Shown: in pieces, positions 3,644 through 46,386 of the stretch | Layout of the letters: each line of letters begins with the position of its first letter | Position numbering within the stretch: position 1 is the stretch's first letter | From: Gordonia effusa NBRC 100432 | Lineage (GTDB): Bacteria; Actinomycetota; Actinomycetes; Mycobacteriales; Mycobacteriaceae | Assembly (NCBI RefSeq): GCF_000241305.1 | Contig: NZ_BAEH01000039.1 | Location: forward strand, 1-64,000 | DNA length: 64,000 nucleotides | Reading direction: 5' to 3' | Translations under genes and position numbers: made by a program | Notes under the pieces: generated by a model | Told to the model about the DNA's origin: nothing | Databases searched by the model: none | Seen by the model: the letters and a program-made list of their open reading frames with translations, nothing else

Positions 3644-3907
3644 TCATCGCGGTCGGGGCACTGGTGTCCGCCCGACGACGACGTGGAGGCCGCGGTCAGA
3701 ACCTATGACGACCTTGATCGGCAGCCATATCCCACCGGCCTGGACTGCACCCGTTTGGTTGGCGCCAACGGAATTGACAAGAGCGCCTTCGCACCAGACC
3801 GCATCGGGAGATCGCCCCGTTTGAGCCGCTAAAACACGCGAGATTTCAGTCTCAAGTTCTGCTCGGCTAATTTCCATATCCGGCGCCCGCGAAGAATCGC
3901 ACGTCAT
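3644..3907 (-). CDS. DUF4333-like small protein without signal peptide
   Basis: 87 residues; ATG at 3907 preceded by GGGAG at good spacing, 45 bases before the toxin start. The body (ISRAELETEISRVLAAQTG, then VWCEGALVNSVGA, then a beta hairpin ending in LHVVVGR) follows the DUF4333 pattern of a helix, V-x-C-p, and VGA-x-x-T. The second cysteine usual in that family is absent, and there is no signal peptide or lipobox, although DUF4333 proteins are normally exported. Its place between the WXG100 pair and the toxin suggests a toxin chaperone or an adaptor secreted with it. The family call is by eye and moderately sure; the role is inference. Confidence 0.65.
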   Translation of the reverse strand: MTCDSSRAPDMEISRAELETEISRVLAAQTGRSPDAVWCEGALVNSVGANQTGAVQAGGIWLPIKVVIGSDRGLHVVVGRTPVPRPR

Positions 3908-3952
3908 ACGGTCGTCTCCCGACTACTCCAACATGTTCAAGTGCGAAGACGA

Positions 3953-3981
3953 GGCGGTCATCTCTGAAAGAGATGACCGCC
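3953..3981 (-). terminator. 13-bp perfect hairpin after the WXG100 pair
   Basis: GGCGGTCATCTCT, a GAA loop (plus-strand sense), and AGAGATGACCGCC form a perfect 13-bp stem 25 bases after the stop of the second WXG100 gene. On the minus strand it is followed by a C/T-rich stretch rather than a clean T run. It may act as a partial terminator or 3' stabiliser, allowing more WXG100 transcript than toxin transcript. Confidence 0.7.
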
Positions 3982-4005
3982 CCCATCGCAAACCAGTTGT
4001 TTAGA

Positions 4006-4296
4006 TCAGTGCCCCAGCTCGGTACGCATATCCGAGCGCATACTGTTGTTCAGATCGCCGGATTCGGAAAGCGAGTTGTATACCTCAGCGACGACGTTAC
4101 GCACCGCGGTCGAACCGGACTGGAAACGAGTAAACAAAGCCTCGTAGATATCGGCCTCGTCACCTTCCCAGTGAGCCTTCAAAGTGTTCTTGGCGGCCTC
4201 GAAGTTTTCCAATTCCGCGTCATAACGCGTTACTTGGCTCTGCAGGTCTTCAAGAGTGGCTGACACCTGCTCATCGTGAAACTTGTATTCTGGCAT
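4006..4296 (-). CDS. WXG100-family secreted protein (module A, second of pair)
   Basis: 96 residues, all helical, with the turn motif W-E-G at ~43-45 (KAHWEGDEADIY) between two helices, as in EsxA/EsxB-type substrates. It has no signal peptide. A C-terminal Y-x3-D/E-type signal could be read at VYNSLSESGD (Y..S..), not a clean match. It is 38 bases downstream of another WXG100 gene, so the two probably form a heterodimer exported through the neighbouring EccC/EccD. A strong hairpin follows it. Confidence 0.9.
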   Translation of the reverse strand: MPEYKFHDEQVSATLEDLQSQVTRYDAELENFEAAKNTLKAHWEGDEADIYEALFTRFQSGSTAVRNVVAEVYNSLSESGDLNNSMRSDMRTELGH

Positions 4297-4334
4297 TTTC
4301 TTCCCCTAAGAAGAGTAGTGATGAACGGTTAGAT

Positions 4335-4799: not shown

Positions 4800-6128
4800 T
4801 CAAGACGGCCAGAAGAACTGATAAATGCCCTGCGCGAGGAACACCATCGGCACAATCCCCAAGGTCAGCGGCGCATCGAACACCTCGTAGGCACGTGCGA
4901 CGCGCGCTGCATTTACGTCGTTCAGCCGGATGACAGCTAGCGAGACAATCACGCCGCAAACGCCCGCGACTAACAATGCGGACAACAAAATAGAGACGTC
5001 GGGGGGCAGATTGAACCATTGCGGCGCAGCAATAGCAGAAACCATCAGCGCGACGGCCGCGGTGCCGAGTAGGGGGATCACATGACGGGCATGAGTAAAT
5101 GACCTGGAGCGGATAACGAGCGCGACTCCCACATACAACGCCAGGATTGCTTGCACCCAAACGCCCGACAGAGCGATTTCGACGAGCGCGGGAACGAGTA
5201 GCGCCGAAGTCGTAATGACGACAAGGTCGACACAGAATCGTGTGGTGCCCAGCCTATGTTCGATGTCACTCCGACTGGCCAGCTGTCCCTCGTCAGTCCC
5301 CCGCACAAGCGCGACAACCCCGCTTGTCGACAGGGCCAATGCTGGCGCATAGCCCAGAATTAGCACCAACGGGATCATCGACCACCCCGAAATCGCGATG
5401 GCGTTGGCCCCAATGTGCACAGCAACTGCGACAACGGCGAATACGACCGCACTAACGATTGCGGCCACGCCGACGACCACAGGTTTGATCGTCCGAATCA
5501 GACAATTGATCGCGACACCGAGTGCGACTCCGGTAAGTGCCAACGCCCAGACCGAATCCTTCATTTGGTCCTCGCCTACGACGTATCCAAGCGCGCCGAG
5601 TGCGAACACCGCAGACCAGCCGACAGGTCCCGCGTCTCGGGATCGGCCGATCCACCCGCAAACAACTGCGGTCGTAGAGACCACTATCAAGCCCACCGGT
5701 GCGGCGTACCCAGCGTCGACAAGCGTCAGCCAGACACTGAAGGCCGCGAGGACCGCCGCAATCAGGTAGCCAACCGCACGGTTGCGGACTGCTCCCGTCC
5801 ATACGGCGTACTGGGTGTTGACTCTGGATTCGATCGCGCCGATCACATCGTCGACGAATGGTGTCTCGACGGCATCGGTGATGGTGGTCAGATAGAGCGT
5901 CGAGCCGTCTAAGACACCGAGGCGTTCGAGCGACTCGTCCGGCGAAAGCCTGCCGCGCACCGGATCGGACAGCGCCCACGCGGTGATATCGACATTGTCA
6001 TTCCCTTGAATGACAGCGAGCGATAATAGTGACGCGAGCCAGTCGTTAATCGTCACATCGGTTGGCAGACTGACATCGACTTGGTTATTTGGTCCCACTA
6101 CTGTGAGCCGGACAAAACCAGTACTCAT
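4800..6128 (-). CDS. eccD: EccD-type T7SS inner-membrane channel protein (module A)
   Basis: 442 residues from the ATG at 6128 (MSTGFVRLTVVGPNNQVDVS); the open frame extends further upstream, but the paralogue at 26322 starts at the same point (MGATFVRLTV). Residues 1-~85 are a ubiquitin-like YukD domain; from ~115 on there are about 11 hydrophobic membrane segments, ending YQFFWPS, almost as in the paralogue (YGLFWPS). In ESX systems EccD dimers form the inner-membrane vestibule to which EccC docks. The gene is divergent from eccC1, with 246 bases between. Neither EccB nor EccE is encoded nearby. Confidence 0.93.
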   Translation of the reverse strand: MSTGFVRLTVVGPNNQVDVSLPTDVTINDWLASLLSLAVIQGNDNVDITAWALSDPVRGRLSPDESLERLGVLDGSTLYLTTITDAVETPFVDDVIGAIESRVNTQYAVWTGAVRNRAVGYLIAAVLAAFSVWLTLVDAGYAAPVGLIVVSTTAVVCGWIGRSRDAGPVGWSAVFALGALGYVVGEDQMKDSVWALALTGVALGVAINCLIRTIKPVVVGVAAIVSAVVFAVVAVAVHIGANAIAISGWSMIPLVLILGYAPALALSTSGVVALVRGTDEGQLASRSDIEHRLGTTRFCVDLVVITTSALLVPALVEIALSGVWVQAILALYVGVALVIRSRSFTHARHVIPLLGTAAVALMVSAIAAPQWFNLPPDVSILLSALLVAGVCGVIVSLAVIRLNDVNAARVARAYEVFDAPLTLGIVPMVFLAQGIYQFFWPS

Positions 6129-6374: not shown

Positions 6375-9300
6375 ATGGCGGCACGCGTAATACATCGACC
6401 GGCTCGAACTAGAGTCGATCCGCTTCCCAAGAAGCCACTCGATGTGTCCGCACCGCCGACCATCGACGATCCTTCGTCGGTTCAAGAAGGAATCGTACTG
6501 CGGTTGGCGATGCCATTAATGGCCGGCGGCGGAATGATGCTAATGATGGCATCGACCGGCAACAAATTGCGTATGGTCGCGGGAATCGGCTTCATTGTGG
6601 TGGCGCTTCTCATGGGTCTTACCATGTATCTACGTTCGAAAACCGGCCATCGTAAACGTGCCGAAATGCAACGCACCACGTATATCAAGTTCCTTACCCG
6701 CTTGAAAAAGGATCTGCAACCGGAAATCCAATTACAACGCGAAGTTCAGCTGCGCTTACACCCCGCACCCAACGAATTACTGTCACTCATCAGCAACCCG
6801 GCCCGGCTCTATGAACGCAGGCGATGGGATCCCGACTTCGGGATGGTCCGCGTTGGCACTGGTGCGGGACCGCTGGCGCGCGACGTGAACTATAGCGAGG
6901 GCGGCGATCCGGCGGCCGAAGTCGATCAGATTTCGGTAGCGCACCTGGAACGGACGAAAGCCATTTTCGACCGCATCGACGGTATTCCGCTTTGCGTGGA
7001 GCTCTCCGGAACAGTCTCCATCATCGGCAGCACCGAGGCATGCGAGTCGCTTATCCGTGCGGCGCTGACCCAATATCTCGCGCTGCACGCTCCAGAGGAC
7101 GCAGCAGTGCACCTGTGCATCGGCAGCGACCCATCGATGCACAACTGGATCAAATTCGCGCCGCATTTGCTGGAAGAAGGCGGTTTCGACGGCCCCGTAC
7201 ACCGACGCAGGGCTACGACGAATCACCCCGATCTCCACGCGTCGTTGAGTCAGCTCATCGCCGAACGGGCCGCCGACGCGGAACGACACGGTCGCATCGG
7301 CCATCCACCTCTTGCCTCGCCGTTCATCGTCATCGTCGTCAACCTCGACGACGCCAACGGCCAACAACCCCTAGCCTTGTTCCCACCCGGAATATCGCCC
7401 GCTACGGTAGGCATTTGCGTCCTCACGCATACGCGTCGCCGAATCACCGAACCGAGCGAGATCACGTGCCGCGTGGAGGTATCCGACGACGGACAAGTCA
7501 CCGTCGAGGACCCCAATTCGATTGATGACAATCCACGGCGCGCATCAATGGCAGCCGAAGCCCGGACCAGGCGGCTCATCATGGGGGCGTCGAAGGGTTC
7601 GGTCGATCGGATGACGCCGAGTCTGGCCAATGCGATCGCACACGAGTTGGCGTCAGTGCGCTTGGCGGCCGAGGAAAGCGCCGAAGCGCCGCTCGAATCC
7701 ACTGTCACCATCGAGAAACTGTTGCGCCTGGACGATATCGGACGATTCGATCCGATCGATATTTGGCGGCATCGCCCCCTCGCCGATTTCTTAAAAGTCC
7801 CATTCGGCATCGACACCAACGGAAACCAGGTCTTCCTGGATCTCAAGGAGTCCGCGCTGGAAGGTCATGGACCTCATGGCCTCTGTATCGGAGCGACCGG
7901 ATCGGGCAAGTCCGAGGTATTGCGAACACTGGTGTTGGCGCAAGCGATTAACCACCCGCCCGAACGTTTGGCGTTTATTCTGGTCGACTACAAGGGTGGT
8001 GCGGCCTTCAACGGTCTCGACATCCTTCCGCATACCGCGGCAATGGTTGACAACCTCGGCGACAGTGATGGGCTCGTCGACCGTCTACACGACGCTATGT
8101 CCGGCGAAATGCAACGCCGGCAGCGTGTTCTGCAAGCCGCCGGTGCGAAGAACATCTACGACTACAACGATCGTCGGGACGCTGGCGCCGAACTCGAACC
8201 GCTTCCCAACTTGCTGGTGATCATCGATGAATTCGGCGAAATACTTGTCCAAAAGCCGGAGTTTCTAGACCTTTTCGTGCAGATCGGTCGTATCGGCCGA
8301 TCGATCGGTATTCACCTGCTGCTCGCGTCGCAGCGTCTGGAAGAAGGGCGGTTGCGCGGACTCGAATCGCACCTGTCCTATCGCATCTGCCTGCGCACGT
8401 TTTCCGCCGTCGAGTCACGTATCGTGATCGGCACCGTCGATGCGCACGAGCTTCCCGCACTTCCTGGATCGGGCTATCTCAAAGTCGATCCCGATGTATA
8501 TGTGCGATTCAAAGCCGCCTATGTGTCGGGTCGGTATGAGCCCCTCGAAGAACGGGTCAGCTTCGACTTGCCGCCGCTGGCGATGCCGTACGGAATCCGG
8601 AACACGACCGGTGAATGGCTCCGAAACCAGCAGGAACTCTATACCGCGGTTATGAAGGCCGAGACCGATCAGCGCGAGGAAAGCCCGTTCGACAAAATCG
8701 CGCTTGAAGTGGCAGCCGAGCGAATGGGCCAAGTTGGGCGCAAGGTCAAGCAAATCTGGCTTCCGCCGCTCCGCGATGACCTTTCCCTCACCGATGTCGT
8801 CGGAAATCTGACAGCGACCGCAGATCGTGGCCTCCAAGTCGCCGACACATCGACCCATTCGAAGCTGCGATTCCCCATCGGAACTGTCGATGACCCAGCC
8901 GAACAATGGCAGGGCACCTTTTACGTCGATACCGCGGCGTCGAACGTTCTTATTCTTGGTGCTCCGCAAACTGGGAAAACTACTACCGCGCGAGCGATGG
9001 TCATGGGATCTGCCGTCACGCACACCCCTCGGCAGGTGGCTTGGTACGTGATCGATGCGGCTTCGACCTTGATGGGCGATCTGGAGGGCCTCCCGCACGT
9101 CGGCGGTGTGGCGACGCGTTTCGATCCGGACAAGATCCGACGCGCCGTCGCCGAGACGACATATGAACTGGCCCGACGCGAAGAACTATTCGTCCAATAC
9201 CGCATCTCTTCGATCGGCCAAATGCGCCGCATGGTGGCGGAGGGCGCGATTCCGGAAATTACCGTCGCCGATCGCTATCTGATGATCGACGGGTGGGCGA

Positions 9301-10490
9301 CGTTCAACACCGAATACGAAACGCTGGTCGCCAGCGTCACCGACATCGCCGTTCGCGGCCTGGGATACGGGCTCCACGTCATCATCGTCGCGAATCGTCT
9401 GGCTGATCTTCGTACTAATCTCAATACGAATCTCAGCACGATGATCGAACATCGCTTGGCCAATGCGGTCGATTCAATGATCTCTCGACCCCTCCAAAAT
9501 CGCATTGGCGCTAAGGAATACGGTCGGGTGATAACTCCGACCGTCAAGCTGGCACAAATTATCAACGCCACCGGAGAACGTGTCGAAAGATCTATCGAAC
9601 AGATCCGATCGGCGTGGCGTGGAGCCAAGGCACCCATAATCCGCATGCTGCCAGAACGGATCACGTACTCAGAGCTCACTTCCGGAGTCCCCGCGAAAAC
9701 CGCCCCGGTCATCCTTGGTATTGATGAAGCGACCCTGTCCCCACTGCATCTCGACATCCTGGGCGACGACCCGCATCTGACAATCTTCGGCGAAGGAGAA
9801 TCGGGCAAAACAAATCTCTTGCGCGCTGTTGTCGGCGATATAGTCGCGCGGCGCGGCGCCGCCGGAACCAACATTGTGGTTATAGACCCGCGACGCAGCC
9901 TTCTCGACGCCGTCCCCCAACCGCCACTGGTCAGCTACGACACGACGCGCGAACAAGCAGCCACAACTTTCGAACGTCTTCACAAATTTCTCTCCAGCCG
10001 CCTGCCCGGCAATGACGTCACACCGGCGCAGCTGCGATCTCGATCTTGGTGGACAGGGCCGGAAGTGTTCGTCATCGTCGATGATTACGATCTGCTCGTT
10101 CCGACCACCATGACTCCCAACCCGCTATCCGCGCTTATTCCACTGATTCCCCATGCGCGGGACATCGGGCTCCACGTCATTATTACGCGCAAAACCAGTG
10201 GACTTTCTCGCGCCCTTTTCGACCCTGTCCTCACCGGGCTGCGCGATAACGGTGGTGCGAGCATCCTGTTATCCGGCGATCGCTCCGAAGGTCAGATCTT
10301 CACCAAGGTCTACCTGCAATCCGAACCGCCTGGACGTGGGCGCCTCATTCGTCGCGGAAACCCCCCGCAGCGCGCGCAATACACCTACTGGCCCGAGGAA
10401 CAAAGGATCACGGCTACGGCCGCCAATGCCCTTCCCAACCTCGACGGCGTCGGTCACGGAACCGACAGTGAGGGTTCCGTGTCGGGGTAG
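6375..10490 (+). CDS. eccC: EccC, three-domain FtsK/SpoIIIE ATPase of T7SS (module A)
   Basis: 1371 residues in one polypeptide (not split into EccCa/EccCb). Two membrane segments lie at ~45-85. Three P-loop domains follow: GATGSGKS at 506-513, GAPQTGKT at 862-869 and GEGESGKT at 1139-1146, each with a Walker B-like strand (LLVIIDEFGE; RYLMIDGW; VFVIVDDYD). All three Walker A motifs are intact. EccC is the motor and substrate receptor of ESX secretion; its last domain binds the C-terminal signals of WXG100 pairs. The start has GAGGTGA 5-6 bases upstream and aligns with the paralogue (HRPAR...DPLPK near the N-terminus). It is divergent from eccD1 and 55 bases ahead of a large substrate-like gene. 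Confidence 0.96.
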   Translation: MAARVIHRPARTRVDPLPKKPLDVSAPPTIDDPSSVQEGIVLRLAMPLMAGGGMMLMMASTGNKLRMVAGIGFIVVALLMGLTMYLRSKTGHRKRAEMQRTTYIKFLTRLKKDLQPEIQLQREVQLRLHPAPNELLSLISNPARLYERRRWDPDFGMVRVGTGAGPLARDVNYSEGGDPAAEVDQISVAHLERTKAIFDRIDGIPLCVELSGTVSIIGSTEACESLIRAALTQYLALHAPEDAAVHLCIGSDPSMHNWIKFAPHLLEEGGFDGPVHRRRATTNHPDLHASLSQLIAERAADAERHGRIGHPPLASPFIVIVVNLDDANGQQPLALFPPGISPATVGICVLTHTRRRITEPSEITCRVEVSDDGQVTVEDPNSIDDNPRRASMAAEARTRRLIMGASKGSVDRMTPSLANAIAHELASVRLAAEESAEAPLESTVTIEKLLRLDDIGRFDPIDIWRHRPLADFLKVPFGIDTNGNQVFLDLKESALEGHGPHGLCIGATGSGKSEVLRTLVLAQAINHPPERLAFILVDYKGGAAFNGLDILPHTAAMVDNLGDSDGLVDRLHDAMSGEMQRRQRVLQAAGAKNIYDYNDRRDAGAELEPLPNLLVIIDEFGEILVQKPEFLDLFVQIGRIGRSIGIHLLLASQRLEEGRLRGLESHLSYRICLRTFSAVESRIVIGTVDAHELPALPGSGYLKVDPDVYVRFKAAYVSGRYEPLEERVSFDLPPLAMPYGIRNTTGEWLRNQQELYTAVMKAETDQREESPFDKIALEVAAERMGQVGRKVKQIWLPPLRDDLSLTDVVGNLTATADRGLQVADTSTHSKLRFPIGTVDDPAEQWQGTFYVDTAASNVLILGAPQTGKTTTARAMVMGSAVTHTPRQVAWYVIDAASTLMGDLEGLPHVGGVATRFDPDKIRRAVAETTYELARREELFVQYRISSIGQMRRMVAEGAIPEITVADRYLMIDGWATFNTEYETLVASVTDIAVRGLGYGLHVIIVANRLADLRTNLNTNLSTMIEHRLANAVDSMISRPLQNRIGAKEYGRVITPTVKLAQIINATGERVERSIEQIRSAWRGAKAPIIRMLPERITYSELTSGVPAKTAPVILGIDEATLSPLHLDILGDDPHLTIFGEGESGKTNLLRAVVGDIVARRGAAGTNIVVIDPRRSLLDAVPQPPLVSYDTTREQAATTFERLHKFLSSRLPGNDVTPAQLRSRSWWTGPEVFVIVDDYDLLVPTTMTPNPLSALIPLIPHARDIGLHVIITRKTSGLSRALFDPVLTGLRDNGGASILLSGDRSEGQIFTKVYLQSEPPGRGRLIRRGNPPQRAQYTYWPEEQRITATAANALPNLDGVGHGTDSEGSVSG

Positions 10491-10545
10491 CGTCAACGAT
10501 ATTCAAACGGAAGCAACCCCGGCTATTTCAGGAGGACATGCGGGA

Positions 10546-12801
10546 ATGGGATCGATATCGGACAAACCGCTGCCCGTGCCGAAGGCTCCCACCGTACCGA
10601 ATAGGGCCACCTATACCGGAAATATCACCCCAAGAAAATCACCGATACCCGACGACGATGGCGCCATTCCAGGCAATACAACGAAAGGTGGGTCGGGAAC
10701 GGCGGCGCCGAGCTCCGGCAACACTACGACTCTGCCCGGCAAATCCACCAGCGATTTCGAGACCATGGCCAATTACAACCTCGTCGCGATGCTGGTGGAG
10801 TTGAAGCGGCAAAAGGACCAGCCATCGGGCGATGCGAGTGCCGGCAACAAAAATTCTCCCGAAGCCATTCGAAAAGCCCAAGAAGAAGCGGAACATGACG
10901 CACACGTCATTCAGAATGGCCGCATCGCAGGGCGGACAGAATTTCCGACGTCACAGCAGAAGGCTGCGGCGAAGGATCGCTTCAAGGAGAACGCGTCTCT
11001 TGTCAAAGAGATCGACGGAAAACCTGACGATTCACTACTAAGAGCACTAGAGAACGGCGAGAATGTTAAGCTCGACGCAGCGACTATCGCATACCTCAAG
11101 CGTTTCAACGAATCCCTTCCTTCGACAGTATCTGGACTAGAGAAATTTCTCAAAGAGAGCCCTGATATCGCTGGCTCAGTGAGCGACAGCCACTTCTTAC
11201 TCTCCAGCAATCAGGTGAAGTATTTAGACGCATTGGGGAGCGAGCAAAGTGGATCAATCAACAACCTCCCTAATAACATCGCGACGGCGTTAACTGAGCC
11301 GGACATAAAATCCGAATCACATTTTTCCATTTTCGGACGCTCCAGATGGTCGTTCGACGGAAAGAACAATGGACCCGGTACCCAACGGGACTTTACCATG
11401 AAAAATGGGGAGACTTTACGGAAACTCACGCAGATCTATCAGAACAGTACTGACTCCACCAATGGATATCGTTACCGCAACGGCTCAGATATCTCACGGA
11501 GTATGATCGCGCGCTCAGGAGAAATAGCATGGGCCGAACGACAAAGGGAACTCGACGCAAACGTTCGCCTGTACAGTGCCCCCACCACCGGCCCGGAACG
11601 CTACCAGGGCTACAAAGAGGTCAACGAAGACTACTATCTCGACACCGCCGCCGATATGTTGAAGATTGTGGGTGACGATCACAACGCTAGCGTCGATGCG
11701 CTCGCCGGTGACAACATGCTCGAGGGATATGACGGGGGAACCATAGACAATCTGTTAAATGCCAGTTGGAACGGGCGCGACGTCAATGGTGAAATCAGCG
11801 GAGAAAAGAAGATGAATCCAGAATTCGGACTCAACAAAGTTTTCGCGCAAATCAACAGTTTCCCCGAACGCGACAACACACAAAAGGCGGCAAACTCGTT
11901 CGGCAAACTACTATCCAGCGGAAAGTACGCGAAGCTGGGTGAGACAAACCCTGGCGTCACTCAGGCGCTAGCCCAAGGATTCCGCGCATACCACGCAAAT
12001 TTCGCGGGATATATCGCGCTAGCCGGAATACAGCCAATGCAGAAATCGGCATATGTCAATCTATTGAAGGCAATGTATTCAGATCCCATTGCCGGAGTTG
12101 AAACCACCGATGCCATCATGACTCAAGAGGCCCTGCTCGCACAGAATTACGGGGCCGGCAGAACCAATGCATCCACTGCCGACATCGCCGGCCAAATGCA
12201 CGTGGCTATGGTCTATGCGGTGTCAAATGTTGCTGCCGACGCGACCGCTCGCGACCGCTATAACAAAATACTCGAATTGGCAAAGAACGGCGCCTTGTGG
12301 GATACGACGGTGGCGGCACTATCGTCCGCAACAGGCATCGCCGGCAAGGTACCGGGTCCGATCGGGACAGTAGGAAAAGTTGGCGACATCGGCCTGAAGA
12401 TCGCGAACCCCCTCGTAAAGATTGCAACGTTAGGTGCTCTCAATCCCGCCGATGTGGAGACACCGGCTGCATTGAGGAATACACTCAACTATGTCGCTAC
12501 CATCGATAACTCGCACACTCTTGATGCCGCAATTGTCCAAGGACTCGCCGAGAAACATCCTGAGATCCTCTCCGATCCAGAGCTCATTAAATACGGCTGG
12601 GTAAAGGACGGGGTGATCCAGGTAGACACAACCAATGTCGGCTTCAGACATAAGATGCTCGAGATAATGGGCAAATACGGAAAAGCTCTAGTACAAAAAG
12701 ACGGAGAAGCGATAGCTGCATATGAACAATCATATGACGTAGGCAAAGACCGTAGCACGTTCGGAATAGTTCCGAAAGAATACGCAGAGAACGTGAATTG
12801 A
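10546..12801 (+). CDS. large hydrophilic putative T7SS substrate
   Basis: 751 residues from the ATG at 10546, chosen for the GGAGG at 10531-10535; the frame itself extends upstream into eccC1. Residues 1-~70 are rich in P, T, S and G; the rest is mostly helical and hydrophilic, with one mildly hydrophobic Gly-rich stretch at ~590-625 (TGIAGKVPGPIGTVGKVG). There is no signal peptide. Segments such as SDSHFLLSSNQVKYLDALGS resemble large actinobacterial proteins annotated as 'TPR repeat region' proteins, but I cannot confirm the family. It directly follows eccC1 in the same direction, so it is probably cargo or an accessory factor. No recognised toxin domain or downstream immunity gene is seen. 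Confidence 0.75.
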   Translation: MGSISDKPLPVPKAPTVPNRATYTGNITPRKSPIPDDDGAIPGNTTKGGSGTAAPSSGNTTTLPGKSTSDFETMANYNLVAMLVELKRQKDQPSGDASAGNKNSPEAIRKAQEEAEHDAHVIQNGRIAGRTEFPTSQQKAAAKDRFKENASLVKEIDGKPDDSLLRALENGENVKLDAATIAYLKRFNESLPSTVSGLEKFLKESPDIAGSVSDSHFLLSSNQVKYLDALGSEQSGSINNLPNNIATALTEPDIKSESHFSIFGRSRWSFDGKNNGPGTQRDFTMKNGETLRKLTQIYQNSTDSTNGYRYRNGSDISRSMIARSGEIAWAERQRELDANVRLYSAPTTGPERYQGYKEVNEDYYLDTAADMLKIVGDDHNASVDALAGDNMLEGYDGGTIDNLLNASWNGRDVNGEISGEKKMNPEFGLNKVFAQINSFPERDNTQKAANSFGKLLSSGKYAKLGETNPGVTQALAQGFRAYHANFAGYIALAGIQPMQKSAYVNLLKAMYSDPIAGVETTDAIMTQEALLAQNYGAGRTNASTADIAGQMHVAMVYAVSNVAADATARDRYNKILELAKNGALWDTTVAALSSATGIAGKVPGPIGTVGKVGDIGLKIANPLVKIATLGALNPADVETPAALRNTLNYVATIDNSHTLDAAIVQGLAEKHPEILSDPELIKYGWVKDGVIQVDTTNVGFRHKMLEIMGKYGKALVQKDGEAIAAYEQSYDVGKDRSTFGIVPKEYAENVN

Positions 12802-12909
12802 CCGACGGTGCTAGATAAGCATTGCCCACGTCCACCTATCCACGGCGAGCTAACGCCACACGTATGGTTAATGCCGGTGTCAGCCAAACGTGGCGAACAA
12901 TCACTTTCT

Positions 12910-14553
12910 TCACTGCTGGGGTGACCACCCGACGGCACCGGTGGGAGGAAAATTCGGTTGGCCGAATTGCTGCGGTGAACCGAATCCAGGAAACTGCTGA
13001 GGCTGCGGCAGAGGTGGTACCGCGAAAGCATCGACCACAGTCGCCGAGAGTTCCAAAAACGCCGCTCGCGTGCGCTCTTCCAATTGTTCCAGGTCGATAT
13101 GCGCCCCGACCGCGAGATGCGGATCATAAGGAATCACTTGGACCGCACGAGTGCGGCCGGCGAAATAGTCAGTCAACATCGAAATGTCGACGGGTGAATT
13201 CCGATCGCGCGCCGACGCGATGACCACAATCGCGTTTCTCGCCAGTTCCTGATATCCATGTGCGTTGAGCCAATCGAGAGTCACCACAGCGCTCTGAGCT
13301 CCATCGATCGCCGGCGACGTAACCAAGACGAGTGAGTTCGCGGCCTTCAGAACACCCGACATCGCCGAATGCACCAGGCCCGTGCCGCAGTCGGTGAGGA
13401 TCAGATTGTAGTGATTTTCAAGAATCGATACGACCCGCAGATATTCTTCTTCTGAAAATGCCTCCGACAGCGCCGGGTCACTCGACGAAGCGAGAACTTC
13501 CAAGCGGCTAGATGCTTGATTGGTATGCCTGCGAATATCGGAGTACCGCGCAACGTTCGGGTCGCCGAGTAGATCCCGCACCGTCGAATACGTCTGGAGC
13601 GGCACCCTACGGGCAAGCGTTCCCAAGTCAGGATTGGCGTCGACCGCGATGACGCGATCCCCGCGCAGTGACGCCAACGCCGAGCCCAGCCCAATCGTCA
13701 CCGTCGTCTTACCAACGCCGCCCTTCAACGAGAGGACGGCGACCTTAAAATCCGAACCAACTGGTTGACGCACTCGCTGGGCCAACTGAACGATATCTTG
13801 GTGACTACTGGTACCACCGAAGGTGATCAGGCCCCCAGCCGCACTTCGCAGGCGCGATCGCCACCCACGATCTTTGCGCCCGGCAGTCATCGGCATTTGC
13901 TGCATCACCGACTGACCGACCTGGGTGTGTATAGGCGGTCGCAACTGCGAATCTGGTTGCGGCAGTACGACATTCGGCTGCGGCATATCTTGCGGCGGCA
14001 TATTCGGCGGCAACACATTCTGCGGCGGCATATCTCGTGACGGCAGGTTCGGCTGCGGCACATTCTGCGGCGGAAAATTCTGCGGCGGCACATTCGGCAC
14101 TTGCTGCTGCCACATGGGCCCCTGTTGCGGACCGACCGGTGTCACCGCCGAGCCGACGGGCTCCTGAGGCATGTGGTGATCCAGCGGCACCTGAGACTGG
14201 GGGAATCCCGATGGAAGCAGATTGGGCAGTGGCGGCACCGGAACCTCCGATCGGACCGGTTGCGGGACGGGATTGAACCCACCACCCGCGCCTTCGGTTT
14301 CGGTCACGATGCCATGTCGGCCCGAGGTCGGCTGCACGGGATTCGACGCCTGAGCCGGTGCTGGATACCCTACGACGCCCGGAACGGCATTGACCGGCGG
14401 ATGGACCGTCGCTGCGGCGCCGTTCGCCGCCGCGGTCACGCCGGCGAAGGGGTTCCCGCCGGCCGCTGGCTCATTCGCAACCGGTCGATTGTCGGTGGTT
14501 GGCTCAGGTCCACCCATCCACGGCGGTGGCTGCGTCGACTCCGGACTCGTCAT
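12910..14553 (-). CDS. EspI-like protein: proline-rich N-terminus plus MinD/ParA ATPase (module A)
   Basis: 547 residues. Residues 1-~245 are rich in P, Q and N with short tandem repeats; from ~260 comes a MinD/ParA-type ATPase with deviant Walker A KGGVGKTT at 277-284, VDANPDLG and a conserved ILTDCGTGL switch region. The proline-rich N-terminus plus ATPase is the architecture of EspI in ESX-1, a cytosolic regulator of secretion. The start has a GAAAGAG ribosome site and is 23 bases behind the upstream gene, so it belongs to a minus-strand operon with the EspC-like and helical proteins. Its paralogue at 27946 shares the ATPase and the proline-rich layout. A regulatory or positioning role in secretion is inferred. 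Confidence 0.88.
   Translation of the reverse strand: MTSPESTQPPPWMGGPEPTTDNRPVANEPAAGGNPFAGVTAAANGAAATVHPPVNAVPGVVGYPAPAQASNPVQPTSGRHGIVTETEGAGGGFNPVPQPVRSEVPVPPLPNLLPSGFPQSQVPLDHHMPQEPVGSAVTPVGPQQGPMWQQQVPNVPPQNFPPQNVPQPNLPSRDMPPQNVLPPNMPPQDMPQPNVVLPQPDSQLRPPIHTQVGQSVMQQMPMTAGRKDRGWRSRLRSAAGGLITFGGTSSHQDIVQLAQRVRQPVGSDFKVAVLSLKGGVGKTTVTIGLGSALASLRGDRVIAVDANPDLGTLARRVPLQTYSTVRDLLGDPNVARYSDIRRHTNQASSRLEVLASSSDPALSEAFSEEEYLRVVSILENHYNLILTDCGTGLVHSAMSGVLKAANSLVLVTSPAIDGAQSAVVTLDWLNAHGYQELARNAIVVIASARDRNSPVDISMLTDYFAGRTRAVQVIPYDPHLAVGAHIDLEQLEERTRAAFLELSATVVDAFAVPPLPQPQQFPGFGSPQQFGQPNFPPTGAVGWSPQQ
13955..14110. repeat. imperfect tandem repeat encoding PPQN/PPQD-type motifs
   Basis: Repeated units resembling GCGGCGGCATATTC and GCGGCGGAAAATTC encode a run of P-P-Q-N/D-x-P motifs in the proline-rich arm of the MinD-type protein. 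The copies have drifted but keep the reading frame. The module B paralogue has its own, different repeat in the same domain. Confidence 0.65.
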
Positions 14554-16120: not shown

Positions 16121-16336
16121 CTACTTACGGCGCATGCTCGCGATCAGGTCGGCAATGACGCCGGCCGCCAAAATCCCGGCGAGGATCGCGAACGCCAGAA
16201 CGATCGAAAAGAGCAGCAATTTCACCACTGGCGACTGCGACCGCGGTTCGAGAGCCCCATGGAGCACAGCCAGCATCGTTGCCCGGTAGCGAAGGCTATG
16301 GGCCTGAAGAATAGTTCTGCGATCGTGCGCGGCCAT
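16121..16336 (-). CDS. 71-residue single-TM protein of the T7SS module (A copy)
   Basis: The ATG at 16336 follows AGGGGA at normal spacing; the longer open frame upstream is not supported. The protein is a cytosolic basic N-terminus (MAAHDRRTILQAHSLRYRAT), a short polar stretch, and one membrane helix at ~42-66 ending in RRK. The module B gene at 27652-27864 encodes a clear homologue (D-x-RT-[IV]-LQAH-x-LR near the N-terminus, an ALIHG/VLHGA motif, the same TM placement). It is divergent, by 25 bases, from the P-loop-less MinD-like gene. Family not recognised; conserved pairing suggests a small secretion subunit or membrane anchor. Confidence 0.8.
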   Translation of the reverse strand: MAAHDRRTILQAHSLRYRATMLAVLHGALEPRSQSPVVKLLLFSIVLAFAILAGILAAGVIADLIASMRRK

Positions 16337-16348
16337 GGTCCGGTCCCC

Positions 16349-16361
16349 TAAGCTCTCTGAT
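16349..16361 (+). promoter_or_regulatory. leaderless-type promoter (-10 TAAGCT) before the MinD-like gene
   Basis: TAAGCT at 16349-16354 lies 7 bases before the ATG at 16362, the spacing at which transcription would begin at the start codon. No Shine-Dalgarno sequence is present, and the spacer to the divergent small gene is only 25 bases. The paralogue at 19899 has the same arrangement. Confidence 0.5.
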
Positions 16362-17180
16362 ATGCCCGCACCGAGTATAACCAGTTGGCGCCCTTCTCCC
16401 GATACGGCCGTCAAACGCGCGGCCCGGCTCGAACGAACAATCGACCTGAAACGATGGCGTCCACATCGTATTGCCGTCGTTCCCCTAGAAGCCGCCGCAC
16501 CGACGTCAGTAGTAGCGGCACTTATCGCGATAGCGGGAAATCGAACTCTCGAAGATCGCATGATTGGCATCGACACAAGCGGTGAACGTTCGTTGACCCA
16601 CCTGTTGGGCGCTGGCGCGGGCGGGAATCTCGGAGGGCTGGGACAGTCAGATATCACACGGCGCGAACGCCGGGCGGTAGATAATTATGTCGATTTCGAG
16701 ACCACTACGGGCGTAGGGGTGGTCGCTCCAACTCCTACCCATCCCGATATCGCACCAGAAATACTTAATGATGCACTACTGGGGATCAGACGTCGATTCC
16801 GCGGGTTTGTCATAGACACGCCAAGTTCGGTCGCTGGCTCCCTCATGCGCCCCGCTCTGGGCAATAGCGACCGTGTCGTCGCGGTAACTTCCGGCAGCCG
16901 TATTCCAGACTGGGTCTTCAATACCGCGAACCCACTGCAACGATTTCTACATACCAGTCGACTGACGGTGGTGCTGCCATTCCAACAAGGTCAGCCGGAG
17001 GCGGTAACCCGATACTCTACGTCAATTCGAACCTTTCCACTCGGCATCACGGTCTATCCCGATGGGCGATGGGATCTTCCCCTCACCGGCCGCGGCTTAG
17101 ATCTCAGTCTCGGCGATATCGGGCTATCGGATATCACCGTCAAACTGGCACGGCACATATTCGAGGCGGGCGATCGATAA
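16362..17180 (+). CDS. MinD-like protein lacking the P-loop (pseudo-ATPase, module A)
   Basis: 272 residues from the ATG at 16362 (MPAPSITSWRPSPDTAV); the GTG-like upstream alternative at 16335 lies inside the divergent gene. The fold is MinD/ParA-like: beta strand HRIAVVPLE at the place of the P-loop, MIGIDTSGERSL where the switch strand sits, FVIDTPSSVAGS, and RVVAVTSGS. The KGGxGKT loop is replaced by AAAPTSVVAAL, so ATP hydrolysis is not expected. The paralogue at 19899 is degenerate in the same place. Each module therefore pairs one canonical and one degenerate MinD protein. It is convergent with the DUF4185 gene, with a hairpin between. Confidence 0.8.
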   Translation: MPAPSITSWRPSPDTAVKRAARLERTIDLKRWRPHRIAVVPLEAAAPTSVVAALIAIAGNRTLEDRMIGIDTSGERSLTHLLGAGAGGNLGGLGQSDITRRERRAVDNYVDFETTTGVGVVAPTPTHPDIAPEILNDALLGIRRRFRGFVIDTPSSVAGSLMRPALGNSDRVVAVTSGSRIPDWVFNTANPLQRFLHTSRLTVVLPFQQGQPEAVTRYSTSIRTFPLGITVYPDGRWDLPLTGRGLDLSLGDIGLSDITVKLARHIFEAGDR

Positions 17181-20696: not shown

Positions 20697-20971
20697 TTCA
20701 CCTTCGCCTTGTAGTCGACAACCGCGTCTCCGCCCGCTCCAATGAGTTTGGAAACGGCTTCGAGAATCTGACTGACAGAAGTCGCGGCCTTATCCCAGCT
20801 ATCGAAAACATCGGTGAAGGTGTCGTGTTCGGTACCGACCCAGCCACCACGGCCCTTGATCTTGCCGTCGAGATCTCTGATATCACCCAGAAGGGCAGAC
20901 GAGACGCTCAGCACTCGTGTCTTGGCGCTAGTCGCCGCGGAATCACGCCAAGCGAAAATATCTCCAGCCAT
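20678..20971 (-). CDS. WXG100-family protein (module B)
   Basis: 97 residues from the ATG at 20971 (MAGDIFAWRDSAATSAKTRV), preceded by GAGGA; the open frame extends upstream without support. It is helical, with the turn motif W-V-G at 44-46 (GGWVGTEHDTF). It lies 19 bases behind a second small helical protein, the usual WXG100 pairing, ahead of the EccC2 locus read in the opposite sense. Export with the partner through EccC2/EccD2 is inferred. Confidence 0.85.
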   Translation of the reverse strand: MAGDIFAWRDSAATSAKTRVLSVSSALLGDIRDLDGKIKGRGGWVGTEHDTFTDVFDSWDKAATSVSQILEAVSKLIGAGGDAVVDYKAKVNQALGD

Positions 20972-26249: not shown

Positions 26250-26321
26250 CGGCACTTCCCTCGCAGTCTCGTCGGTCAGGTGGCAGCGCTTGGACCAATC
26301 ATCATCTGCAATGATTACTCC

Positions 26322-34897: not shown

Positions 34898-34941
34898 CTT
34901 TTACCCAGCCTTTCGTATCGATGTATAGCTTCAGACTATAC

Positions 34942-37368: not shown

Positions 37369-37373
37369 ATTTT

Positions 37374-38204: not shown

Positions 38205-38228
38205 TGCCTTTCACCTTCTTTGCAGATC

Positions 38229-43282: not shown

Positions 43283-43576
43283 TCAGCCGTGCAAAATGGT
43301 GTTATTAATACCCTTCTGCATTGACAACACCTGCTGTGAATTGTCACCTAGGGTCTGTCGAATCTGCGTCAGCACCTGAGTAATCGAATCGAATCCTCGG
43401 GAAACCTTCCCATGGATACCCGAGTAGGTCTCATGCTCGTCACCCGACCATGCCGAGGCCAACTTCGTTACATGCTCTTCGAGTTCGTCAACAGCCGACT
43501 GCAGGTTGGTGGCCGCTGTCTCCACACGTTCCTCAGCCTGCTGCGCCGCACCATGGTCATATGAGTAATCCGTCAT
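43283..43576 (-). CDS. WXG100-family protein next to the RHS toxin
   Basis: 97 residues from the ATG at 43576 (MTDYSYDHGAAQQAEERVET) with GGAG 8 bases upstream. The turn motif W-S-G appears at ~43-45 (SAWSGDEHETYSG), and the length fits EsxA-type proteins. It directly precedes the RHS toxin and follows another helical WXG100-like gene, so the pair probably forms the carrier complex for the toxin. Confidence 0.9.
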   Translation of the reverse strand: MTDYSYDHGAAQQAEERVETAATNLQSAVDELEEHVTKLASAWSGDEHETYSGIHGKVSRGFDSITQVLTQIRQTLGDNSQQVLSMQKGINNTILHG

Positions 43577-43620
43577 CACACGCTCCAATCAAAGAATAAA
43601 CGGGCCAAAAGAAGTCGGTC

Positions 43621-43959
43621 TTAGATGTTGGTGTTCTCGGCGTCGTGGAAGTTCATATGTGCTCCCGCCGAACGAACCGTATCGTTCTGGTCAGACTCAC
43701 CACGGGTGTAGTCCGACGAGACCTGCTCGGTCCGAGCACCCAGTTGACCCAGGGCCTTATTCACCTGGTCAGCCGCTGACTTCCACTGGTCCTTCAGACC
43801 CGACAACGCTTCCTTTGCGCCACCGTCGATCTTGCCCAGCAGATCCTCCATCGCCGACTCGAATTCAGATGAATTCGAAGTGAACTTTCCTACCGCATCC
43901 TGCAAATTCGAGGCATGCCCCTTGACTGCAGCATGCTCGACCGAAAAGAAACCAGCCAT
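43621..43959 (-). CDS. WXG100-like partner next to the RHS toxin
   Basis: 112 residues, ATG at 43959 behind GGAGGG. Helix-turn-helix with W59 in KDQWKSAADQ at the turn and a longer C-terminal tail (YTRGESDQNDTVRSAGAHMN). A Y-x3-D/E-like signal is visible at YTRGE. No signal peptide. First of the pair; a strong ribosome site suggests high expression. Confidence 0.88.
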   Translation of the reverse strand: MAGFFSVEHAAVKGHASNLQDAVGKFTSNSSEFESAMEDLLGKIDGGAKEALSGLKDQWKSAADQVNKALGQLGARTEQVSSDYTRGESDQNDTVRSAGAHMNFHDAENTNI

Positions 43960-44043
43960 GACAAACCCTCCAGTTACCTGAACTAACTACCTACGACGAA
44001 AGCCAACATTAGCGGTATCGGATCACCGCCGCAATAATTCAAA

Positions 44044-45699
44044 TCACCCACCCGGACCGCGCGGAGCGTTCCGCCCGCTACCGGGCCCCTGCATCGAGTC
44101 AGGCAGCTGCAAAGTCGGGAGTTTCGGTGCGCCAAGATCAGGCGCCGGACCGAATGGAATGCGCGCTCCGCCGGGCAACGGGATCTCCGGAACGGTCGGT
44201 GACGGCGCGGGAATTCCGCGGCGCGTCACGGTCGCGTGCATCAAGTAGACGTTGTAACTCGACCACTGCGACATGGTGAAGTACAGGTCATTACCCTTCG
44301 ACCACGGGTGAATACTCGCACCATAGATCGATGGGTAGTTCGCGGCCGACGCGACCACCTGCGGCGACGTCCACGGCCCTTGCGGATTCGCAGCCTGTCG
44401 CAACACGATGCCGTTGTTGAAGACGTCGGTCGACAGCATCAGCCAACGTCGCAGCGAGGGACTGTATTGCACCGAAACCTCGCCTACGCCGCCGGACACC
44501 ACTGCGCGCGGCTCAGCGGTGAGCCCCTTCTGCCAGTGGGTACCGGTCCAGTACTGGTATGCGGCGCGATACATGATCTGGTTCGCGGGAACTCGCGCCA
44601 CGTAGACACCACCGACGCGGCCTTGTTCGGTGCCGAACATGTAAACCATGCCGCCGCGTTTCGCGAGCGCCGGCATTTGGAAGTTCCGTGCTGGGCCTGC
44701 GTTGGTCCAGAAAGCACTACCCGATTTCCGCCAGGTCGCACCGTTATCGCCGGACACGGCGATACCCGAATAATTCGACGTCCAGGACCCGGGAGCCGGA
44801 CCATAGCGACGGATCGACGCGTAGGACACGTACTGCTTGCCGCCGATCGAGATACCCGACGTCGGCAACGTGGTTATCTCCGAACCGTTAACGCGCCGCG
44901 CCGGAATCACTTCCCGCGCATGGTTGGCACGGTTGCTCAGGAATGAGTTGTAACTCATCTGATTGAGATTGCGGGTGGAACTATAGGCCAAAGTGTTTAC
45001 GCGCCAATCGAATCCGGTCGGCGCGGACGTACCAGTGTCACCGGCGTAGCCCGACCCCTGCTTGCCGCCCTGCTTCAGATTGACATACGGCAGCGCTGGG
45101 AACGGGATCTCCTTGGGCATTATCGGCAGGTTCAGGCCCGCACCACTCACGTAGGGCGGCTGACCACTCGACTCGCCTTTGGGGCGCGGCGTACCGAATG
45201 TGTCGCCGAACATGGTGATGACCTGGCCACTGCCGTTGTCCCACATGACCGCGTTACCCGCGCCCGCTACGCCCCACTTGGTATCGGTGTGGTCGGCGGA
45301 CTGCGACCCGGTCAGTTTCGTGACGAAAGCGTTGGTCACGCCACCCTTGGTGATCGGCTGGCCGTTTCCGCGCTTCTCGCCGACGTTTTCGTTCTTCGGC
45401 GCCGGGTACAAGTCATTACCGGGACCAGTCGGGGCCGGTGAATTCTGATCGGGTACCACCGTCACCGACGGTTTGTCATCGCCGCCCTTCGGCAATTCCG
45501 GAACGGCCGGAGCGGGAGGAACGATCATCGCCGCGTTTTGCACATTCGGCACACTCAATTGCGGCTGAGCGTTGAGATTGGGCGCCTGCGCCTGTTGCGA
45601 ATTACCGGAGTTCGACGAGCAACTCGCAAGCGCCAATGTCGCCGAAAGGCTCAATACGCAGCCAGCGACAACACGCTTCTTCGTGGTTGTGGTCTTCAT
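44044..45699 (-). CDS. DUF4185 lipoprotein (GH183-like), module B
   Basis: 551 residues from the ATG at 45699 (MKTTTTKKRVVAG), with GAGGAA upstream; lipobox LALASC. The domain order and motifs repeat those of the module A copy: SADHTDTKWGVAGAGN, MFGDTFG, FDWRVNTLAYSS, WTSNYSGIAVSGDNGATWRK. The linker behind the lipobox (LNAQPQLSVPNVQ, then MIVPPAPAVP) is also conserved, more than expected for a passive spacer, so it may be a docking site. Outward-facing; probable endo-D-arabinofuranase by family. It starts 25 bases after the transglycosylase-like gene and is surely cotranscribed with it. Confidence 0.9.
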   Translation of the reverse strand: MKTTTTKKRVVAGCVLSLSATLALASCSSNSGNSQQAQAPNLNAQPQLSVPNVQNAAMIVPPAPAVPELPKGGDDKPSVTVVPDQNSPAPTGPGNDLYPAPKNENVGEKRGNGQPITKGGVTNAFVTKLTGSQSADHTDTKWGVAGAGNAVMWDNGSGQVITMFGDTFGTPRPKGESSGQPPYVSGAGLNLPIMPKEIPFPALPYVNLKQGGKQGSGYAGDTGTSAPTGFDWRVNTLAYSSTRNLNQMSYNSFLSNRANHAREVIPARRVNGSEITTLPTSGISIGGKQYVSYASIRRYGPAPGSWTSNYSGIAVSGDNGATWRKSGSAFWTNAGPARNFQMPALAKRGGMVYMFGTEQGRVGGVYVARVPANQIMYRAAYQYWTGTHWQKGLTAEPRAVVSGGVGEVSVQYSPSLRRWLMLSTDVFNNGIVLRQAANPQGPWTSPQVVASAANYPSIYGASIHPWSKGNDLYFTMSQWSSYNVYLMHATVTRRGIPAPSPTVPEIPLPGGARIPFGPAPDLGAPKLPTLQLPDSMQGPGSGRNAPRGPGG

Positions 45700-45723
45700 C
45701 TGAACGTTCCTCATCCCCACGAT

Positions 45724-46386
45724 TCAGCGCCCGTACCGGCCGGCGAACGCGTGTACTTTGTCCAAGAACCCCGGCGTCGAATTGAATTGCGCCACCGCTG
45801 CGGCCCAACCATCGGACTTACGAAGGTCCCCACCTGCCGCACACAAGTACCTGGCGACAGTCAGGGTGGCGTCGTCGAAATTGTCCGGATCGGCTTTGCC
45901 GTCATTATCGGCATCGGTCGCGAACTGCTCCCATTTGCTGGGCATGATCTGCATCGGCCCCATAGTGACGTCGATGCTGTCGTTTCCGTCGTATCGCCCG
46001 GCGTCGGTATCAGCGATGGGCTTCGCGCGCTCCGGATTCGCCTGGGTCAGCCCTCGCAGTTGCGGCGCCACGATGCCGTCGTTTCCGATTGACGAACCGT
46101 CAGCGCTGCCATGTTCGCTGGAAACCGCGCCGATCGCCGCCAGAGTTGACCAGCCGATGCCGCAGCCGGGCACTGCCTTATCCATCGCGGCCGCGGCATA
46201 CGCGTACGACTGCAGGGCGCGTACTGGGATGCCGTAGGGCTCGCTATGCAACTGCGACCATGCCCTCAACTGCACTGATGGCACGTCCTGTTTTGTCGCC
46301 TCGTCGTCTTTGCTCAATCGGGACGAACATCCCGCTACCAGAGCAATCGCCAGTAGAACTCCCATGACACCCATGGCTTTTCGCAT
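45724..46386 (-). CDS. transglycosylase-like lipoprotein lacking the usual catalytic Glu (module B)
   Basis: 220 residues from the ATG at 46386 (MRKAMGVMGVLLAIALVAGC), GAGGG upstream; lipobox ALVAGC. The transglycosylase-like motifs match the module A copy: QSYAYAAAAMDKAVPGC, IGWSTLAAIGAVSSEHGS, DVTMGPMQIMPSKWEQF, NGKADPDNFDDATLTVARYL. The Glu expected in IG-x-[IV]-E-S is again Ser, although an EH pair follows two residues later and might substitute. The gene is first in a two-gene unit with the DUF4185 lipoprotein. The substrate is presumably peptidoglycan; catalysis is uncertain. Confidence 0.88.
   Translation of the reverse strand: MRKAMGVMGVLLAIALVAGCSSRLSKDDEATKQDVPSVQLRAWSQLHSEPYGIPVRALQSYAYAAAAMDKAVPGCGIGWSTLAAIGAVSSEHGSADGSSIGNDGIVAPQLRGLTQANPERAKPIADTDAGRYDGNDSIDVTMGPMQIMPSKWEQFATDADNDGKADPDNFDDATLTVARYLCAAGGDLRKSDGWAAAVAQFNSTPGFLDKVHAFAGRYGR

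Follow-up and report, generated by a model that had tools for sequence, protein, structure and literature searches.

Two adjacent type VII secretion system (T7SS) modules were analysed in a 64,000-nucleotide stretch of Gordonia effusa NBRC 100432 (assembly GCF_000241305.1, contig NZ_BAEH01000039.1, positions 1 to 64,000), referred to below as the window, which is contig C95 of the 4.70 Mb genome. Each module encodes an EccC ATPase, an EccD, a small protein with a single transmembrane (TM) segment and MinD-fold proteins, and none of EccB, EccE or the mycosin MycP was found within the window. Within the literature searched, the modules are an undescribed variant of T7SSa. We put the probability at about two in three that they are members of a separate actinobacterial T7SS lineage, sister to or preceding ESX, which operates by the mechanism proposed below.

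Window proteins were assigned to families with Pfam and NCBIfam models. Seven families occur twice, and each pair was recognised as true paralogues by tblastn within the window: EccC1 and EccC2 (48% identity, E 0), EccD1 and EccD2 (36%, E 4e-64), the ATPases MinD1 and MinD2 (65% in the C-terminal part, E 7e-118), the P-loop-less MinD proteins noP1 and noP2 (32%, E 1e-13), the one-TM proteins TM1 and TM2 (46%, E 1e-12), the DUF4185 lipoproteins (75%, E 0) and the SLT lipoproteins (67%, E 4e-93). A preliminary description of this DNA had reported two adjacent loci with the same seven families in different orders, which was borne out; p21412 and W2b are module parts that it had overlooked. Module 1 runs, in the order listed below, from W1a to SLT1. 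Module 2 runs from noP2 to MinD2 and, past an island with an Rhs gene, continues with W3a, W3b, DUF4185_2 and SLT2. Assignment of this last block, at 43-46 kb, to module 2 is supported by the compact system of genome G044, which has SLT, DUF4185, the W3 pair and Rhs in a row. Amino acids are abbreviated aa.

4006-4296 and 4335-4676, minus strand: W1a and W1b, WXG100 pair of module 1 (PF06013, W1a just below and W1b above cut-off; motifs)
4800..6128, minus strand: EccD1, 442 aa from the start used, YukD and EccD transmembrane domains (PF19053, PF08817)
6375..10490, plus strand: EccC1, 1371 aa single-chain FtsK/SpoIIIE ATPase (TIGR03924, TIGR03925; tree)
10498..12801, plus strand: EspA-like TPR_23 protein, in module 1 only, start uncertain, candidate substrate (PF23275, E 2e-24)
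12910..14553, minus strand: MinD1, proline-rich N-terminus and intact KGGVGKT P-loop
14577..16024, minus strand: p14577 (one WXG motif) and p15665, candidate substrate and partner
16121..16336, minus strand: TM1, 71 aa, one TM segment, candidate 'mini-EccB' (homology to TM2)
16335..17180, plus strand: noP1, MinD fold, P-loop lost
17256..18911, minus strand: DUF4185_1 lipoprotein, GH183-like, one catalytic Asp gone
18961..19647, minus strand: SLT1 lipoprotein, transglycosylase family, Ser at the catalytic Glu position
19899..20696, plus strand: noP2, first gene of module 2, MinD fold, P-loop lost
20678..20971, minus strand: W2a, WXG100 protein (PF06013, just below cut-off)
20991..21317, minus strand: W2b, WXG100-sized partner, of a family kept with window-type EccC (above 100 bits in 13/30 regions)
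21412..22164, minus strand: p21412, Mog1/PsbP fold, no TM segment, candidate effector chaperone (14/30 regions)
22203..26255, minus strand: EccC2, 1350 aa single-chain FtsK/SpoIIIE ATPase (TIGR03924, TIGR03925; tree)
26322..27641, plus strand: EccD2, 439 aa from the start used (PF19053, PF08817; TIGR03920 just below cut-off)
27652..27864, minus strand: TM2, 70 aa, one TM segment, candidate 'mini-EccB'
27946..29790, plus strand: MinD2, proline-rich, intact P-loop
38229..43226, minus strand: Rhs protein, 1665 aa, candidate toxin cargo (PF05593, PF20148, TIGR03696)
43283..43959, minus strand: W3a and W3b, WXG100 pair adjoining the Rhs gene (PF06013, above cut-off)
44044..45720, minus strand: DUF4185_2 lipoprotein, GH183-like, one catalytic Asp gone
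45724..46419, minus strand: SLT2 lipoprotein, Ser at the catalytic Glu position

Both EccC proteins exceeded the cut-offs of TIGR03924 and TIGR03925, and both EccD proteins those of PF19053 and PF08817; on TIGR03920 the EccD pair reached 79.3 and 89.9 bits, just below its cut-off of 94.95. WXG100 pairs are present, W2b being without a Pfam hit. TM1 sits within a longer called open reading frame (ORF) and was recognised by homology.

For the EccC phylogeny, 397 genomes were searched order-wide and 301 family-wide with two candidates scored per genome, so that copy counts are lower bounds, and window-type EccC genes were found in several further genera. Part of the hits of both searches was fetched, and gene neighbourhoods were inspected in 62 regions with EccC in addition to the window. 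A tree of 62 rows was computed as a quick LG+G4 run with midpoint root; G108 was dropped (contig end), the EccC of M. alvei (split in two) failed the length filter, and near-identical rows (G368 and G438; G942 and Tsukamurella; six rows of genus g5) were counted singly. The 23 EccCs with a local EccB all fall within one 29-row branch (support 100), which spans Tsukamurella, Nocardia, mycobacterial and Streptomyces plasmid systems and was sampled from ESX-4-like and plasmid EccCs, chromosomal ESX-1, -3 and -5 not knowingly being included. Its remaining six rows are five ESX-4-like EccCs and G098 (no EccB within its 20 kb). The five were labelled by hand as having EccB elsewhere (own ESX-4, G007e, G044e, TsukESX4 and G371a), which was shown for the host genome, G007 and G044 and assumed for TsukESX4 and G371a.

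Both window EccCs score above the curated cut-offs and lie outside this branch, in a 13-row group of the host's family (support 99) nested in groups of 22 (98) and 27 rows (99). Forcing them into the EccB branch was rejected by the approximately unbiased (AU) test with p 2.35e-66, and a single clade of the 31 EccB-less rows was not rejected (p 0.33). With the five ESX-4-like rows set apart, the label 'no local EccB' changes twice on the tree, against a shuffled mean of 20.6. Loss of EccB and its not yet having been gained are both compatible with the midpoint-rooted tree. A DNA search of plasmids with EccC1 gave no match.

Absence of EccB, EccE and MycP was followed at the level of neighbourhoods and of genomes. 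By single-sequence search, none of the three was matched in the regions of the 27-row EccC clade (0/27). The host genome as a whole has three EccCs and one EccB: outside the window, profile search found one EccB and one EccE on contig C2 (~79-82 kb, in the interior of a 106 kb contig) and one MycP adjoining a canonical ESX-4 EccC/EccD on contig C7, beside rplM/rpsI. The preliminary description had noted the lack of all three genes at the modules, which holds for the window, with one copy of each elsewhere. Among 59 genomes of the same genus, window-type EccC occurs in three, with two copies in the host and one each in G. asplenii (G007) and G044, and each of these has one EccB and one canonical EccC. 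In a related genus (group f4/g14), all six genomes, which are 95-100% complete, bear window-type EccC and none has a match to the EccB profile PF05108. The same profile finds EccB in 9/10 other genomes, the tenth, G232, being 63% complete. No mycosin above cut-off was found in the six, where lower-scoring subtilases are present. The earlier suggestion of a distinct T7SS type was thus strengthened, by the position of EccC outside the EccB clade as well as by the counts of 0/27 and 0/6. Window-type EccC is the only one in G131 and G143 of this group (no further EccC at E 1e-60). The other four carry one or two additional EccC-like genes that have diverged strongly (at 220-331 bits, they stay under the family cut-off of TIGR03924) and are perhaps of another T7SS type. 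As a separate observation, the ESX-4 EccC/EccD/MycP and the EccB/EccE pair occupy separate positions in the Gordonia host genome.

The one-TM proteins resemble the N-terminal anchor of EccB. For profile comparison, the TM family was aligned with the EccB N-terminus (cytosolic helix and TM) by hhalign, which gave a probability of 94.3, E 1.1e-7 and a score of 38.4 over 56 columns; 39 natural TM segments of other T7SS proteins reached at most 14.3 and 60 column-shuffled EccB alignments at most 13.7. When 10,212 ORFs of EccB-less regions were ranked by the EccB N-terminal profile, TM proteins took ranks 1-7 and 13 of the top 15; reciprocally, EccBs made up 7 of the top 10 among 6,371 ORFs of EccB-bearing regions ranked by the TM profile. 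The family has the counterpart of the EccB linker helix and TM by both measures. TM1 and TM2 terminate a few residues past the hydrophobic stretch and have no EccB periplasmic domain. A sub-cut-off Pfam match of TM2 to ETRAMP (E 0.0084) was taken as chance. In ESX-3, the EccB linker helix contacts EccC and EccD-bent, and the EccB TM contacts EccD-extended and, via lipid, EccC, according to the parts of the structural report consulted (PMC6986878). Judged from sequence comparison, the one-TM protein is a putative 'mini-EccB'. The preliminary statement that EccB is absent is correct for the full protein and needs qualification for its N-terminal anchor.

Core-set counts were obtained with iterated profiles over 31 regions of 12-64 kb, 30 of them with EccC (ABSL49, whose piece lacks EccC, was excluded from counts of 30), and misses are local. 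EccD was present in 29/30 EccC-bearing regions, the TM protein in 25/30, a MinD-fold protein in 18/30 and p21412 in 14/30; DUF4185 was found in 10 and SLT in 11 regions, both only within the host's family. The wider core, as read from these sequences, appears to consist of EccC, EccD and the TM protein, joined less constantly by a MinD-fold protein. Accessory co-occurrence with EccC, as first proposed, therefore stood for the TM and MinD-fold proteins and was confined to the host's family for DUF4185 and SLT; p21412 and W2b accompany window-type EccC in more groups than either lipoprotein.

The closest named loci are those of Gordonia asplenii and Gordonia sp. ABSL49_1, and a DUF4185-based survey gave two loci. 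A Tsukamurella tyrosinosolvens locus (NZ_LR134454.1) has two WXG100 genes, DUF4185, a 97-aa protein, EccD, SLT and EccC, and no EccB was found within 32 kb. Its TM (mini-EccB) gene, at 12858-13283 on the opposite strand between EccD and SLT, is absent from the listed features, the gene table of this plasmid being incomplete. NZ_LR134454.1 and NZ_LR134467.1, deposited as plasmids of T. tyrosinosolvens NCTC13231, carry rplM, rpsI, glmM and gltB and look like chromosome pieces labelled as plasmids. On a separate branch of the EccC tree, two Streptomyces plasmid loci have EccC and EccD and no EccB in 12 kb flanks; these EccC-EccD-WXG100 loci, a second EccB-less branch, also encode a beta-helix protein.

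MinD1 and MinD2 share a proline-rich N-terminus and an intact P-loop with EspI-like MinD proteins, the likeness resting on these features, and two MinD proteins of plasmid ESX loci match MinD2 at 195 and 209 bits. Among the MinD-fold proteins, noP1, noP2 and those of group f14 have lost the P-loop and those of f4 have a degenerate one; it is intact in the proline-rich MinDs, in G244 and in G294. The noP profile matched the MinD profile with probability 93 and E 3e-7. At E 1, Pfam gave no family for noP1, noP2, p21412, p14577 or W2b, and a sub-cut-off match of p15665 to Toxin_10 (E 0.012) was taken as chance. The p21412 model (predicted local distance difference test score, pLDDT, 80) matches the Mog1/PsbP fold, with LpqN, MTC28 and PsbP matching better than the Eag chaperones EagT6 and SciW. 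No match to p21412 was found in plasmids. Across the phylum it was found in 1/396 genomes, its own, with six candidates scored per genome and 13 other known carriers unsampled or missed.

All four window lipoproteins have a lipobox. DUF4185_1 and DUF4185_2 match PF13810 at 322.9 and 321.2 bits (about 1e-96), and SLT1 and SLT2 match PF13406 (SLT_2) at 25.4 and 33.5 bits (cut-off 24.3). DUF4185 proteins are described as GH183 endo-D-arabinanases, and mutating either of two Asp residues abolished activity of the Dysgonomonas gadei enzyme, as stated in the accessible text (PMC10115798). The window proteins align with the GH183 enzyme of PDB 8hhv over ~280 residues (E 3e-80). In the linked DUF4185 proteins the second Asp (GDTF) is kept in 11/11, whereas the first (TDLG), present in a Rhodococcus phage homologue and in the DUF4185 of G1030, is kept in 0/11 and replaced by Gly or Ala. 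In the SLT proteins the Glu that we take to be the catalytic one of the MltB family is present in 0/13 (Ser, Thr or Leu instead), compared with 4/4 SLT comparators; an Asp or Glu two residues further on is found in 11/13 (Asn in G1026, Ser in ABSL49), and the GPMQ motif is kept in the Gordonia and g6 proteins. From these residues, both lipoproteins look like conserved pseudo-hydrolases, and since the loss is conserved while the families are conserved too, binding rather than cutting is suggested. Wall-cutting by the lipoproteins, an idea taken from GH183, was set aside after this residue check.

The two modules differ in history. EccC1 and EccC2 as sisters were rejected with AU p 8.9e-42. EccC2, EccD2 and noP2 pair with G. 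asplenii and then G044, EccC1, EccD1 and noP1 are on long branches of their own, MinD1 groups with a G044 protein, and DUF4185_1 and SLT1 lie among Gordonia copies. Because the trees of its parts disagree, module 1 is read as a mosaic in which an old translocase is combined with younger accessories, and not as module 2 copied and reshuffled. For the core, an origin by tandem duplication of a single module is rejected by the AU result; the accessories are younger and mixed. The earlier picture of seven families co-duplicated as one unit was not supported.

From the local set of EccC, EccD and a one-TM protein, often with a MinD-fold protein and without EccB, EccE and MycP, we infer the following mechanism. 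EccC motors and EccD would form the membrane channel. The one-TM protein would replace the EccB linker helix and TM, which bind EccC and EccD in ESX-3, and a periplasmic EccB/MycP cap would be missing. The MinD-fold proteins, one with a working P-loop and the other its inactive partner, may help to assemble or position the apparatus, and p21412, with its Mog1/PsbP fold, may be a cytosolic chaperone for WXG100/Rhs cargo. Gordonia and Tsukamurella have a mycolyl-arabinogalactan wall; there, the two lipoproteins, with their apparently inactive arabinanase and transglycosylase folds, would hold on to arabinogalactan and peptidoglycan without cutting them and so anchor the apparatus at the wall. 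The cargo would probably be Rhs and WXG100 toxins used between bacteria.

Several observations weigh against assignment of the modules to a separate lineage. In the EccC tree the root is uncertain, the inference was quick, and the letter composition of EccC1 is odd; taken purely locally, the 'no local EccB' label changes five times. Whole-genome absence of EccB applies to f4/g14 and to G232 (63% complete) alone, the absence being local elsewhere, and the EccB of the Gordonia genome could work in trans. An iterated-profile search likewise found EccB, EccE and MycP in none of the 31 regions, which had been chosen for an earlier no-EccB result, so that this zero is a recheck and not an independent survey. 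For the EccB-like anchor, alignments with the TM kept and the cytosolic half shuffled had a median score of 30.2, and 1/60 reached 39.0, above the observed 38.4. Scored separately and in the same register, the TM reached 23.4 and the helix 14.4; from these part-wise and shuffled scores, the TM stretch gives much of the EccB signal and the helix adds to it. Worst ranks were 958 (of 26 TM ORFs) and 325 (of 25 EccB ORFs), and single-sequence E-values of the mini-EccB match are weak (best 0.002). The TM protein was not found in 5/30 regions, genes farther out escaping regions of this length, and a MinD-fold protein was not found in 12/30 (one of them, G061, with a 25-bit trace). The EccC of G1026 is partial, and no EccD turned up in the 20 kb of that region. 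Mog1/PsbP is a common fold. The DUF4185 of G1030, ~5.7 kb from its EccC, retains the TDLG Asp; it was treated as a separate arabinanase outside the 11, a choice made against a possible exception.

Among the alternatives, it is quite unlikely that the modules are ESX-4-type systems without local EccB, EccE and MycP that use the single chromosomal copies in trans. Such copies do exist outside the window, and the EccB of the host's own ESX-4 is on another contig, so split loci occur; the EccC copies nevertheless lie outside the EccB-bearing clade (p 2.35e-66), the six f4/g14 genomes with window-type EccC have no EccB match to share, and the TM protein is itself similar to the part of EccB that contacts EccC and EccD. 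Decaying ESX remnants that no longer secrete and are kept as neighbours of toxin genes would account for the partial EccC of G1026, the lost P-loops, the lost wall-enzyme residues and the mosaic ages of the parts. This is very unlikely, because the EccCa domain of the window type is above the family cut-off without internal stop in 16/16 genomes searched (G246 only with neighbouring pieces added, G1026 outside the set), the same residues are lost in different genera, in proteins that are otherwise conserved, and two copies are retained in one genome.

Alternatively, the catalytic residue may have moved within the lipoproteins; they would then still be active hydrolases and would clear a path through the wall for secretion, in the way that the dedicated hydrolase EssH serves the T7SSb of S. 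aureus. Both families are kept, as are the GDTF Asp in 11/11 and an Asp/Glu two past the lost SLT Glu in 11/13, and a hydrolase dedicated to T7SSb has reportedly been described (PMC13059805). We consider this unlikely, given that either Asp was essential in the D. gadei GH183 enzyme in the text available (PMC10115798) and that the lost positions hold Gly/Ala in DUF4185 and Ser/Thr/Leu in SLT. Least credible is an apparatus that moves DNA by an FtsK-like pump with MinD/ParA-like partners: FtsK/SpoIIIE and MinD folds are present and ESX-like clusters occur on plasmids, but the EccCa/EccCb models are matched above cut-offs, WXG100 pairs and an Rhs gene adjoin, and the module proteins that were scanned with Pfam gave no relaxase hit.

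For comparison with known systems, the separate lineage was set beside T7SSa/ESX-4, with which it shares EccC above TIGR03924/03925, EccD with a YukD domain, WXG100 pairs and MinD2-like proteins, which also occur near ESX loci. It differs in that EccB and MycP, like EccE, are not encoded with the system, EccC is outside the EccB clade and a separate 70-aa EccB-like anchor is present, and in its addition of DUF4185/SLT lipoproteins and p21412. With T7SSb and with T7SSc-T7SSj (Garrett et al. 2024, PMC11217815), as far as the accessible text of that survey goes, it has in common the EccC/EssC ATPase, WXG100 proteins, Rhs-type cargo and stripped or alternative partners; that text names no EccD among their parts, whereas the window type has EccD. 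T7SSd, the sole new type in Actinomycetota in the same excerpt, combines an ATPase bearing FHA domains with a kinase and a large Ig-like protein (PMC11217815). Pfam scans of the module proteins gave no hit to any of these T7SSd parts, and those of the two EccCs none to an FHA domain, a feature of the ATPase in T7SSb, d, e, f, i and j. The EssA/EssB/EsaA and Tsx partner sets were likewise absent from the Pfam hits of module proteins, no dedicated profile search having been run. The lipoproteins share the family and the GDTF Asp with GH183 (PMC10115798 in part; 8hhv) but not the TDLG Asp (0/11), and the linked SLT proteins match MltB-type lytic transglycosylases (SLT_2) as a family but are without the catalytic Glu.

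Newton-Foot et al. 2016, in the sections consulted, derive ESX-4 by addition of eccB, eccD, mycP and rv3446c to a WXG-FtsK cluster (PMC4791881). The window type, having EccD without full EccB or MycP, is a combination not met in those sections. The same source mentions an ESX region of T. paurometabola that has a deletion of eccB and a disrupted eccC, and interprets it as a damaged ESX-1-like cluster (PMC4791881). In the literature searched, with thin coverage of subscription papers, no description of an EccB-less EccC-EccD system was found. It is possible, though we would hold it only tentatively, that a stage of T7SSa assembly, or a parallel result of it, survives in this lineage: a translocase of EccC, EccD, a MinD-fold partner and an EccB anchor as a protein of its own, either predating the periplasmic domain of EccB and the mycosin or doing without them. 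EccB would then have come about when the anchor gained a periplasmic domain, and in mycolate bacteria dead wall hydrolases would have been added as wall receptors. The stepwise proposal for ESX origin, as far as that source was seen (PMC4791881), would gain a living test case. The EccB periplasmic domain has been suggested as essential for oligomerisation in the consulted part of the ESX-3 structure paper (PMC6986878). With a related translocase whose sole EccB-like part is the anchor, the role of the anchor could be told apart from that of the cap, and a natural minimal T7SS would be at hand for study; such a system could show how T7SS machines can be built from fewer parts. The modules also suggest that conserved dead arabinanase and transglycosylase folds may serve to hold a secretion machine in place within a mycobacterial-type wall.

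Export of Rhs/WXG100 toxins is the likely role of the modules, Rhs genes being present in 8/14 clustered regions. Upstream of module 1, positions 938-3598 encode an 886-aa proline-rich protein without Pfam family that is weakly similar (33 bits) to a GH-E nuclease toxin beside the Tsukamurella system and is perhaps another cargo. An 87-aa protein at 3644-3907, with a DUF4333 match below cut-off (25.6 vs 27 bits), is outside the seven families. Small orphan proteins, one with DUF4259, are encoded at 29816-38204 between MinD2 and the Rhs gene, and this stretch looks like a store of immunity genes. The island is low in GC, at 0.565 for 29791-43226 vs 0.631 in the flank.

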